Of a DNA stretch of 64,000 nt, positions 26,600 to 30,877 are shown in pieces; position 1 is the stretch's first letter, and each line of letters opens with the position of its first letter. The notes beneath the pieces are model-generated. The model was not told the DNA's origin. It worked only from the letters and a program-made list of their open reading frames with translations, and did no database searches. The position numbers and the translations under genes are program-made. This DNA is from Dethiobacter alkaliphilus AHT 1 (GTDB lineage Bacteria > Bacillota > Dethiobacteria > Dethiobacterales > Dethiobacteraceae): the NCBI RefSeq assembly GCF_000174415.1, contig NZ_ACJM01000004.1, positions 124,001-188,000 on the forward strand, in the 5' to 3' direction.

Positions 26600-27400
26600 G
26601 TGGCTGAAGAAAAAGGATTGTCAAGAAGAACATTGCTAAGGGGGGCAGGGTACTCACTGGCCGGCCTCACCCTGGCCGGTACAGTTGGTATGCTGCTGCC
26701 GGGATGCGGCACAGATGAAGGGACTGCTGCAGAAAACGGGGAGGTTGCAGCTGCTAAGTGGCCATTAAATTATGCTAAACTGGATCCAGATGAAGCGGCG
26801 CAAAGAGGGTACGATGCCTATTGGGAGGACGGCTGAGGCTACGGTGTAGCCCAAGGTCTTTTGGGCTATTTGGCTGAAGAAGTGGGTTATCCGTTTAACC
26901 AGATTCCCGCCGAAACATTTGGTTCTTACCGAGGCGGCGTGGAAGGCTGGGGATCAATCTGTGGAGCACTGGTTCCTGCCATCTCCGTCATTAATCTGGT
27001 GGTAGACAAAGAAGACAGAGCTTCCCTGGTTAACGAACTGATGGCCTGGTACAAGGAATTTCCCTTCCCCGAATTCCAACCGGCAGGGCTGGATTTGCCC
27101 GGCGTCCCCATTAACTCCAGCCTGTGCCATGTTTCCGTGACCAAATGGATGGAGGAAACAGGGTATGGCCCCAGAAGCTCTCCGGAGCGCGGCGAAAGGT
27201 GTGCCGGCCTCACTGCAGATGTAAGCAAATTCACCGCCGCCATGCTCAACAAATACTTCGAAGAAGGCTCCTATACCGGACAATACGCAGTATCCCCCGC
27301 AACAGGCCAGTGTATGGCCTGTCACGAAGAAAATGTTAAACCGTATGCTCACGGTAAGGAAGACTGCATAGAATGTCACGGTGACCCGCACGAGGATTAA
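26600..27400 (+). CDS. Predicted selenoprotein: Tat-exported split-Soret-type diheme cytochrome c lipoprotein (TGA at 26834-26836 read as Sec)
   Basis: Read through one TGA, the frame gives 266 residues. GTG at 26600 follows AAGGGGG by eight bases. Residues 8-15 (SRRTLLRG) form a twin-arginine signal and LLPGC puts a lipidation Cys at 36. The body has Sec79, Cys121 (in GWGSICGALVPA), Cys176 (SSLCHVSV) and Cys201 (ERCAGL), the spacing of the four conserved Cys of the C_GCAxxG_C_C family. CMACH (238-242) and CIECH (256-260) are two heme c sites. This combination is that of split-Soret cytochrome c from sulfate reducers, where four Cys are thought to hold an Fe-S cluster. Homology continues across the TGA (GYGVAQGLLGYLAEEVGYP follows it), and a SECIS-like hairpin follows. 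A sequencing error or nonsense mutation is the alternative. It is the only plus-strand gene in the window. selA/selB/selC are not in the window. Confidence 0.85.
26846..26869 (+). promoter_or_regulatory. Bacterial SECIS-like hairpin
   Basis: The stem GUAGCCCAA / UUGGGCUAU (9 pairs, one G-U at the base) has a six-base loop GGUCUU (26855-26860). It begins 9 bases after the TGA, and the loop begins 18 bases after it. Bacterial SECIS elements put a loop with G in its first two positions 16-37 bases after the UGA; the E. coli fdhF loop likewise contains GGUCU. An alternative shorter pairing GGCTAC / GTAGCC right after the TGA competes with the base of this stem. Confidence 0.8.
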
Positions 27401-27410
27401 GGTACATGCA

Positions 27411-27441
27411 AAAACCACGGGTATATATACCCGTGGTTTTT
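27411..27441. terminator. Bidirectional terminator between the Sec cytochrome gene and the tRNA-Leu cluster
   Basis: AAAACCACGGGTATA / TATACCCGTGGTTTT forms a perfect long stem with A-run and T-run flanks on both strands. It lies 10 bases after the cytochrome stop codon and 18 after the 3' end of the convergent tRNA-Leu. Confidence 0.92.
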
Positions 27442-27901: not shown

Positions 27902-29218
27902 TTAACTGCTAATGGCTCTAAGGCGCAGGCTGATTTCCTGCTCACAGTGCGGGCAGAGCAGCACTCCTGCGGGAACCTGTTTTGCCGCAGTTTCTTTTTC
28001 GGGCGCTTTGGTCAGAACAGCCAACAGCACACCTAACACACTGAGACCGGCTGAAATAGCAAAGGCTATCCCATACGTTCCTGTCATATCACGGACCAAG
28101 CCTCCGATTAGGGGACCAAAAACGCCACCGGCTCCCCAGGCTGTAAAGACAAGCCCGTAATTAACACCGAGATTCTTCAGGCCAAAATAGTCTGCCGTCA
28201 GCGCAGGGAACAGGCTGAGCATGCCCCCGAAAGCAAAGGCAACAAAAGCTGTTCCGGTAAACAAAGTCAGCGCTGTTTGGAACTGGGCAAAGAACGCAAA
28301 GCAAACAACCTGGATCAGGAAAATAATAACCAGTGTCATTCTACGATCCAGCTTATCCGATATTACACCGCAGCCGACCCGTCCCAGACAATTAAACACC
28401 GCGTACACCGAGATAAGGGCGAAAGCCGCCCCGTCAGAGAGCGCAGCCTGTTCTAAGCCAATATCCCTTAACTGGCCGATAATCATCAGCCCGGCAAATG
28501 TGCCAAAACAAAACATAATCCATAAACCATAAAACTGAGGTGTCCGAACTACCTGCTTCCAGTCAAAATCCAGACCGGAACTTTTATTCTGTTTTATTAC
28601 TTTGATAGCTTTGAATTTATCTACAGGTGGTGCCGGCACATAATCTTCCGGCGGATTAGAGATAAACTGTGCAAAAGTAAAAATAGCAGCACAAAAACCC
28701 AAACCCAGAATAATCATGGTCATTTCTATACCAAACCTGGCCAGCAAAACCTGAGTCAGGGGGGCTACATAAATACCCGCCAGTCCAAAGCCACTAACCA
28801 CGATTCCGGCAATCAGACCACGCTTATGCGGTCCAAACCACTTCAGGGCGGCAGGAGTTGCCGCTGCATAGCCAAAACCCATTGCCGAACCAAAAACCAC
28901 ACCGAAAAATATCGAAAGACCTACAACGGATAAAAACAAGCCTGACAACACAAAACCTATTCCTGTAAGAATGGCAGAAGCTAATATTATTTTTTTGGGT
29001 CCCATACGGTCCTGCAGGCGACCACCGGGAACCATCAGCAATGCAAATAGTGCACAAGCAACCATATAAGGAATTTGGGATTGCGTTGCGGTCCACCCCA
29101 AGGCACGCAGTTCATTGGCAAAAGCTCCCCAGGAATAAAGCACACCTAACGCCAGGTTTACACCCAGCCCCGCAAACGTAACAATCCATCCTTTTTTCGA
29201 ACCTATAACTGTACCCAT
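27902..29218 (-). CDS. OFA-family MFS transporter (oxalate/formate-antiporter type), copy 1
   Basis: 438-residue permease with 12 predicted helices of the oxalate:formate antiporter family in the major facilitator superfamily. Visible are GVLYSWGAFANELRALGWTATQSQIPY at the N-terminus, the GGRLQDRMGPKK loop between helices 2 and 3, and KWFGPHKRGLIAGIVVSGFGLAG. Family members carry small carboxylates such as oxalate, formate, pyruvate or lactate; the substrate here is not predictable. The C-terminal tail carries a CPHC pair, unusual for an MFS protein. A paralogue lies 363 bases upstream. ATG at 29218 has GAGGGAGG before it. Confidence 0.88.
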   Translation of the reverse strand: MGTVIGSKKGWIVTFAGLGVNLALGVLYSWGAFANELRALGWTATQSQIPYMVACALFALLMVPGGRLQDRMGPKKIILASAILTGIGFVLSGLFLSVVGLSIFFGVVFGSAMGFGYAAATPAALKWFGPHKRGLIAGIVVSGFGLAGIYVAPLTQVLLARFGIEMTMIILGLGFCAAIFTFAQFISNPPEDYVPAPPVDKFKAIKVIKQNKSSGLDFDWKQVVRTPQFYGLWIMFCFGTFAGLMIIGQLRDIGLEQAALSDGAAFALISVYAVFNCLGRVGCGVISDKLDRRMTLVIIFLIQVVCFAFFAQFQTALTLFTGTAFVAFAFGGMLSLFPALTADYFGLKNLGVNYGLVFTAWGAGGVFGPLIGGLVRDMTGTYGIAFAISAGLSVLGVLLAVLTKAPEKETAAKQVPAGVLLCPHCEQEISLRLRAISS

Positions 29219-29581: not shown

Positions 29582-30877
29582 TTAGCCTGCCTTGCCGCCG
29601 GCCTCGAAAATATTCTCTCCACAGGCAGGACAGACACTGGATGAGGAAACCAAAACCTTTCTCTCCGATGGTGCTTTGGTGGTGAGCGCCAGCAAAATCC
29701 CTACTGCACTGAGAGCCACAGCAACGATGTAGCTGATATTATATGTCCCGGTAACATCACGGACCACGCCGCCCAGCAACGGACCGAATACACCGCCGGC
29801 ACCCCAGGCGGTAAACACCAGGCCATAGTTCAGGCCTAAGTTTTTAACACCAAAATAGTCGCAGGTGATGGAGGGAAACAGGCTGAGCATCCCGCCGTAG
29901 GCGAAGGCCACCACAGCTGTTCCGGCAAACAGTGTAAAGGGTGTGGTAAAACCGGAAAAGAAGCTGAAAGTGAAAACCTGAATCATAAAAATGGAAACCA
30001 CCGTCATTCTCCTGTCCAGCTTATCGGAGATAAACCCACAGCAAATACGGCCAAGGGAATTACAGACAGCGAAGAATACCACCAACGCTGTAGCCCACTG
30101 CGGAGTCAGGGACGCCTGCTCAATACCGATACTTCTCAGCTGACCGATAATCAACAGCCCGGCTAAAGCACCAAAACAGAACATGAGCCACAGGCTGTAA
30201 AACTGAGGAGTACGGACCATCTCTTTCCATTCATAATTTGCTTCGGCACAGGTTGTTTTCTTTGTGCCCTTTACCAGGGTAGGCGGCTGTTGCGGCACGT
30301 AGTCTGCGGGAGGGTTGGCCATAAAACGGGAAAACACAAATAAGGCAATACTAAAAATGGCTCCCAGGATATAAAAGGTAGAAGTAAGTCCGAATTGCTC
30401 AATCAGGTATCCGGCCAGCGGAGCGGCATAAACGCTGGCTATGCCAAAACCGCTTACCACAATCCCGGAAATCAGGCCACGCTTATGTGCGCCAAACCAC
30501 TTGATGGCCGTAGGAGTGGTGGTAGCATAACCAAAACCGATGGCGGCTCCAAACAGCATACCAAAGAAAATTGATAACCCGGCTACAGTCAGTATCAAGC
30601 CGGACATCAGAAAACCTATGGCCGTTAAAACGGCGGCAGTTAAGATTACCGGCTTAGGGCCCAACTTGTCCTGCAATCTTCCTCCAGGCACCATTAACAG
30701 GGCAAACATAGCACAGGCCACCATGTACGGAATCTGCGTTTGGGTGGCGGTCCAACCATAATTGGACTGCAGGGCCTCGGCAAACATTCCCCAGGAATAA
30801 AGCACTCCCAGACTGAGGTTAGACCCGAAACCGGCAAAAGCAACGACCCAACCCTTTTTCTGATTCAACTCTGACAT
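29582..30877 (-). CDS. OFA-family MFS transporter (oxalate/formate-antiporter type), copy 2
   Basis: 431-residue paralogue of the neighbouring transporter, with the same 12-helix plan: GVLYSWGMFAEALQSNYGWTATQTQ, GGRLQDKLGPKP and KWFGAHKRGLISGIVVSGFG. The tail again has a paired-Cys motif, CPACGENIF, as if half of a zinc ribbon were kept in both copies. A probable substrate is a small monocarboxylate or dicarboxylate. It has its own promoter-like site and terminator, so the two copies are separate transcription units. Confidence 0.88.
   Translation of the reverse strand: MSELNQKKGWVVAFAGFGSNLSLGVLYSWGMFAEALQSNYGWTATQTQIPYMVACAMFALLMVPGGRLQDKLGPKPVILTAAVLTAIGFLMSGLILTVAGLSIFFGMLFGAAIGFGYATTTPTAIKWFGAHKRGLISGIVVSGFGIASVYAAPLAGYLIEQFGLTSTFYILGAIFSIALFVFSRFMANPPADYVPQQPPTLVKGTKKTTCAEANYEWKEMVRTPQFYSLWLMFCFGALAGLLIIGQLRSIGIEQASLTPQWATALVVFFAVCNSLGRICCGFISDKLDRRMTVVSIFMIQVFTFSFFSGFTTPFTLFAGTAVVAFAYGGMLSLFPSITCDYFGVKNLGLNYGLVFTAWGAGGVFGPLLGGVVRDVTGTYNISYIVAVALSAVGILLALTTKAPSERKVLVSSSSVCPACGENIFEAGGKAG

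Follow-up and report, generated by a model that had tools for sequence, protein, structure and literature searches.

A bacterial SECIS-type hairpin after the in-frame TGA of a split-Soret-like PF09719 gene in Dethiobacter alkaliphilus

In bacteria selenocysteine (Sec) is inserted when SelB, with GTP and Sec-tRNASec, binds the loop of a SECIS element and delivers Sec at a UGA, and in the SECIS of E. coli fdhF a bulged U on the 5' side of the upper stem is important. The split-Soret cytochrome c of PDB entry 1h21 is that of Desulfovibrio desulfuricans ATCC 27774. A study of split-Soret cytochrome c by Abreu et al., cited in PMC5701242, names a novel iron centre in its title. According to PMC4215793, no phenotype was seen for mutants of split-Soret genes in D. 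alaskensis under the energetic conditions that were tried. The general bSECIS model (PMC13188914) has a spacing of 16–37 nt between UGA and apical loop, a loop of 3–9 nt, an upper stem of 4–16 bp, a G in the first two loop bases and an energy of -7.5 kcal/mol or lower. Two forms, 1 and 2, of C-GCAxxG-C-C selenoproteins (PF09719) are listed in PMC13188914 and PMC9312934; bSECIS elements are thus a known kind of signal, and Sec is already known from proteins of PF09719. The form 2 protein may belong to the split-Soret-like branch, and a literature search covering few subscription journals did not find split-Soret cytochrome c joined with selenocysteine or selenoprotein.

The window analysed here is a stretch of 64,000 nucleotides of D. 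alkaliphilus AHT 1 (contig NZ_ACJM01000004.1, positions 124,001 to 188,000). On its plus strand a CDS extends from a GTG start at 26600 to a TAA at 27398–27400, and codes for 266 residues when the in-frame TGA at 26834–26836, codon 79, is read as Sec. The TGA is followed by a spacer of 9 nt (26837–26845) and a hairpin at 26846–26869, with the 5' arm GTAGCCCAA (26846–26854), the loop GGTCTT (26855–26860, GGUCUU in RNA) and the 3' arm TTGGGCTAT (26861–26869), all on the plus strand; the arms form nine contiguous pairs without a bulge, one of them G-U. The SECIS-like hairpin that an earlier note had described after the TGA is therefore present with its GGUCUU loop, and of the distance of 18 bases that the note gave to both stem and loop, the loop start is indeed at 18 nt but the stem start at 9 nt. 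The loop lies 18 nt from the UGA, or 19 nt if a G-U pair closes it, and has 6 nt, or 4; the stem has 9 pairs, or 10; the loop starts with GG and the energy is -12.8 kcal/mol, all of which falls within the bSECIS limits, and the in-frame UGA is aligned with Cys in homologues, as the model also has it. Eighteen TGAs in the window can be read through with at least 60 codons on each side, and two of them, at 26834 and 34144, have a hairpin of -7.5 kcal/mol or lower.

Folding of 26834–26880 (47 nt), which the note had proposed, gives -17.3 kcal/mol against -11.8 in shuffles (z -2.40, 3 of 200 shuffles equally low), with the hairpin in the minimum free energy (MFE) fold. The hairpin is also in the MFE folds of stretches of 39 nt (z -2.25) and 101 nt, although the total energy of the latter is unremarkable (z -0.44). 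That the 101-nt context fold is not unusual would suit a reading in which the TGA is a real stop, a sequencing error or a pseudogene mutation while codon choice gives rise to the hairpin as a side effect, and so would the nine pairs that form in 1445 of 20000 (7.2%) synonymous-codon draws made with the protein fixed and pooled codon usage. Since nine pairs arise this often, a single sequence cannot settle the matter; the window sequence, only moderately unusual, is by itself a SECIS case of only moderate strength, and the decisive evidence is comparative. An Rfam scan had no SECIS match at the gathering score, nor with a lax E-value, where the sole match was a chance lncRNA (E 2.4), which says nothing against a SECIS.

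Homologues were collected from three overlapping sets, with matches in 9 of 19 genomes for the family, 17 of 97 for the class and 52 of 398 for the phylum, and named records contributed 9 loci; relatives in the Desulfobacterota lie outside the sample. The 94 loci gave 99 gene matches, counted after L077, with a gap at the column, had been removed, and without 10 duplicates there are 89 distinct genes in which the codon-79 column is aligned. In this set, which took in all TGA-flagged matches and left out some weaker TGA-less phylum matches, the column codon is TGA in 36 genes, TGC in 29 and TGT in 24, and nothing else in any of the 89; L089 was flagged for a TGA, yet its column codon is TGC. 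A paralogue in the same genome (L064, G000:C5:167369–168127), 39% identical, belongs to the Cys forms and has neither the TGA nor a hairpin that passes the bSECIS rules. Codon 79 is the first of four cysteine positions of the family, the other three being Cys121 (26960–26962, Cys in 88 of 89 rows, 1 gap), Cys176 (27125–27127, 86 of 89, 3 gaps) and Cys201 (27200–27202, 86 of 89, 3 gaps), all with Cys in every homologue row that has a residue there. Further downstream, sequence and homologue alignment place two haem c attachment motifs, CMACH at 27311–27325 and CIECH at 27365–27379. A stop, an error or a decaying gene is hard to reconcile with 36 distinct homologues that have TGA at this very column and 53 others that all have Cys, or with a downstream half that retains every family cysteine and both haem motifs. 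One TIGR01909 match with an internal TGA, at G051:C66:11513–11890, was seen among the matches listed for 149 genomes.

The published bSECIS limits (PMC13188914, section 5) were coded and applied to the homologue genes. Of the 36 TGA genes 35 pass, as against 3.9 expected when synonymous codons are drawn at random; of the 53 Cys genes 1 passes, with 1.2 expected. The exceptions are the TGA gene L082, with a hairpin of -6.8 kcal/mol just outside the -7.5 limit, and the Cys gene L037, which passes with -9.1; the expectation that homologues with Sec carry the hairpin is thereby borne out. On an unrooted tree of 87 proteins, two short rows being excluded, the Sec/Cys label switches at least 7 times. 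Of 7 contrasts that are independent of one another, an average of 6.6 have the hairpin on the Sec side and 0 the opposite way (sign test, median p 0.016). The Sec gene L031 and the Cys gene L029 are sisters with support 100/100, and the best bSECIS-type energy is -7.9 kcal/mol in the former and 0.1 in the latter, the hairpin being lost in the Cys copy. At G018:C13:19559–21226 (L028/L031) the copy with Sec stands in tandem with a truncated one that has Cys, and L029 lies in G012. A hairpin that tracks the TGA across homologues and tree is a further point against a by-product of codon choice beside a stop, error or mutation, and we regard that explanation as exceedingly improbable.

Ten more distant TGA genes are placed among Cys genes in the tree. 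In L078, L080 and L081 the hairpin is at 20 nt with the loop GTT, in L079 and L084 at 20 nt with GGTC or AGTT, and in L082, L083, L085, L086 and L087 at 31 nt with AGTT. Because the placement of the SECIS differs in this way, the distribution suggests that Sec may have been gained separately several times at column 79, with unrelated SECIS elements; losses are also possible.

Covariation was examined in the 26 TGA genes that have at least five of the six inner pairs, a set that coincides exactly with the TGA rows at least 40% identical to the window protein. The inner six pairs, 26849–26854 with 26861–26866, make up a conserved core at 26849–26866 and hold in 96.8% of the cells, a percentage inflated by this selection, and in slid registers the pairing falls to 50% of the cells or less. 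Nine pairs are found in the window, as had been noted, but only these six are conserved in relatives; the nine-pair stem was rejected as a conserved unit, the outer three pairs holding in just 11, 6 and 9 of the 26 rows. A basal helix GGCUA/UGGCU of the 39-nt fold was rejected likewise (56.2% against 55.5% in shuffles). The covariation looked for in the stem is there: three inner pairs have two-sided changes in 20 cells against 4.7 in shuffles, and 0 of 500 shuffles reach as high, with the reservation that related rows are not independent and may surpass shuffles of this kind even where no structure exists. As the rows were picked by pairing, the percentage paired is the weaker evidence, and more weight falls on the Sec/Cys contrast and on the changes at both sides of a pair. 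The loop starts with GG in 25 of the 26 genes and with AG in one, so that the conserved G which the note had asked for is found at the second base in 26/26 and at the first in 25/26.

The codons at +6 and +9 after Sec (26852–26863 in the window) are CAA-TTG, CAG-CTG, GAG-CTC, GAA-TTC, GAT-ATC, GAC-TTC or GAT-TTC in the window gene and its 25 relatives. Their residues vary jointly in the main Sec branch, as Q-L, E-L or E-F, D-I or D-F, which is expected if the codons pair in the RNA; the stem thus appears to dictate which residues co-occur at these two positions. A hairpin model built from the 26 rows, the window sequence among them, gives 55.4 bits at the site and 13.1 at the next best place in the window. 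No second good match was found with it in the own genome, where the next has 13.4 bits, and the model is therefore gene-specific.

The same rows bear on a second hairpin, GGCTAC-GGT-GTAGCC at 26837–26851 of the plus strand, which adjoins the TGA and which the note had called a switch or nothing. It exists, and in the window sequence its six pairs GGCUAC/GUAGCC share bases with the 5' arm of the SECIS, so that two mutually exclusive hairpins might alternate between a SECIS-competent and an incompetent fold. Its pairs are not conserved, however, forming in 69.2% of the cells against 72.7% in shuffles; compensatory change at them is not in excess, and the MFE fold of both the 47-nt and the 39-nt stretch takes the SECIS. 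A switch is accordingly very unlikely, and most probably the competing hairpin has no role.

The genome has a tRNASec at G000:C1:86930 with anticodon UCA and G73, and selA, selB and selD are adjacent in a row on contig C1. A formate dehydrogenase selenoprotein of its own (Fdh-alpha, L149, a TIGR01591 match) has an in-frame TGA and, at 18 nt, the loop GGTCT on the stem GTGGCC/GGCCAC, and the window element consequently has a geometry that is used elsewhere in the genome. The selD gene (L059, G000:C1:110375–111301) also has an in-frame TGA, after which no hairpin in accordance with the bSECIS rules was found, the most stable one having a CCCG loop at 15 nt. A tRNASec-like tRNACys with a long variable arm (L002, G000:C3:124334–124423) scores 58.5 bits to the tRNASec family and is folded by ARAGORN with an acceptor stem of 8 bp, and such a tRNA calls to mind a reading of the UGA as cysteine by a SelB-dependent tRNACys(UCA) of the selC* type, as in some Desulfobacterales. 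In PMC7609411, selC* tRNAs with a UCA anticodon are described; the anticodon of L002 is GCA, which would not read UGA, and L002 therefore speaks against cysteine decoding of that kind. The UCA tRNA of the genome has G73 and is called tRNASec by ARAGORN, selA and selD are present, and selB has a single match above the cut-off in the genome, all of which makes decoding as cysteine very improbable.

We conclude, with a probability of about 96%, that the hairpin is a bacterial SECIS at which SelB with Sec-tRNASec(UCA) delivers Sec at codon 79. Computation shows the reading frame, the column of Sec and Cys codons, a covarying hairpin that is inherited together with the TGA, and the machinery genes, and SelB binding and Sec insertion in the cell are what we infer from these. 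The mRNA hairpin at 26846–26869 would present its GGU loop 18 nt past the UGA, SelB with GTP and Sec-tRNASec(UCA) would bind this loop, and the bound SelB should then place selenocysteine at codon 79 rather than let translation terminate.

The product of 266 residues scores 46.7 bits with PF09719 (C_GCAxxG_C_C), above the Pfam gathering score of 27. With the TIGR01909 model for C-GCAxxG-C-C (seleno)proteins it has 26.4 bits, below the curated cut-off of 47.4, and with the split-Soret cytochrome c equivalog NF047622 it has 181.3 bits (E 2.5e-53), below the cut-off of 400; the two CxxCH haem motifs after a four-Cys domain that belong to NF047622 are found. Because it reaches neither of these two curated cut-offs, the protein is named split-Soret-like. 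The N-terminus, read from the sequence, has the RR motif SRRTLLRG, presumably a twin-arginine signal, and LLPGC, which we take to be lipobox-like. The protein is thus predicted to be exported, and the exported product would probably carry electrons via its two haems.

Among the 36 TGA genes, 8 have no CxxCH motif. One of these, L087, reaches the contig end; the other seven (L016, L035, L038, L040, L041, L050 and L107), Sec forms of about 211–217 residues that stop before it, appear to have no haem domain. As the Sec domain occurs without haems in these seven genes, Sec seems to be independent of the haem domain. The four conserved Cys/Sec positions are natural candidate ligands of an iron centre, and a redox role may be ascribed to Sec. 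A tentative proposal, which we hold to be rather doubtful, is that Sec is the ligand or redox partner of an iron centre, a selenolate-iron wired to the stacked haems, in a column that became Sec several times with the SECIS at 18, 20 or 31 nt.

The gene is followed by a probable terminator at 27410–27441 on the plus strand, a perfect palindrome with a terminal T run 3' of the stop codon, seen in the sequence and not picked up by a consensus scan. On the minus strand, two similar neighbouring open frames at 27902–29218 and 29582–30877 resemble, by eye, major facilitator transporters.

What appears as a gene in two pieces becomes one selenoprotein gene, and the use of Sec by the exported split-Soret-like branch of PF09719 is strongly supported for many genomes of the phylum. 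With at least 7 Sec/Cys switches, and with hairpins that appear and vanish together with Sec, the family offers a good natural experiment for studying how SECIS elements evolve.

Compared with known systems, the window hairpin fits all four constraints of the general bSECIS model (PMC13188914). It is like the SECIS of the E. coli formate dehydrogenase type in being a stem-loop just past the UGA, at 18 nt and with a loop starting GGU, and unlike that of E. coli fdhF in having no bulged U in the stem; a conserved lower stem is lacking as well. With the SECIS of the organism's own Fdh-alpha gene it shares the 18 nt from TGA to loop, which in L149 is GGTCT, but the six-pair stem of the latter has an unrelated sequence. 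The tRNACys of the genome (L002) resembles the selC* tRNACys of PMC7609411. Forms 1 and 2 of the C-GCAxxG-C-C selenoproteins (MGD8741185.1, WP_012158890.1) are alike in belonging to the same Pfam family and in having Sec in a redox-type protein; a difference is that the window protein stays below the TIGR01909 cut-off. The split-Soret cytochrome c 1h21 is aligned over residues 59–261 of the window protein (E 2.9e-37) and likewise has two CxxCH motifs, but it has Cys at the position where the window protein has Sec.
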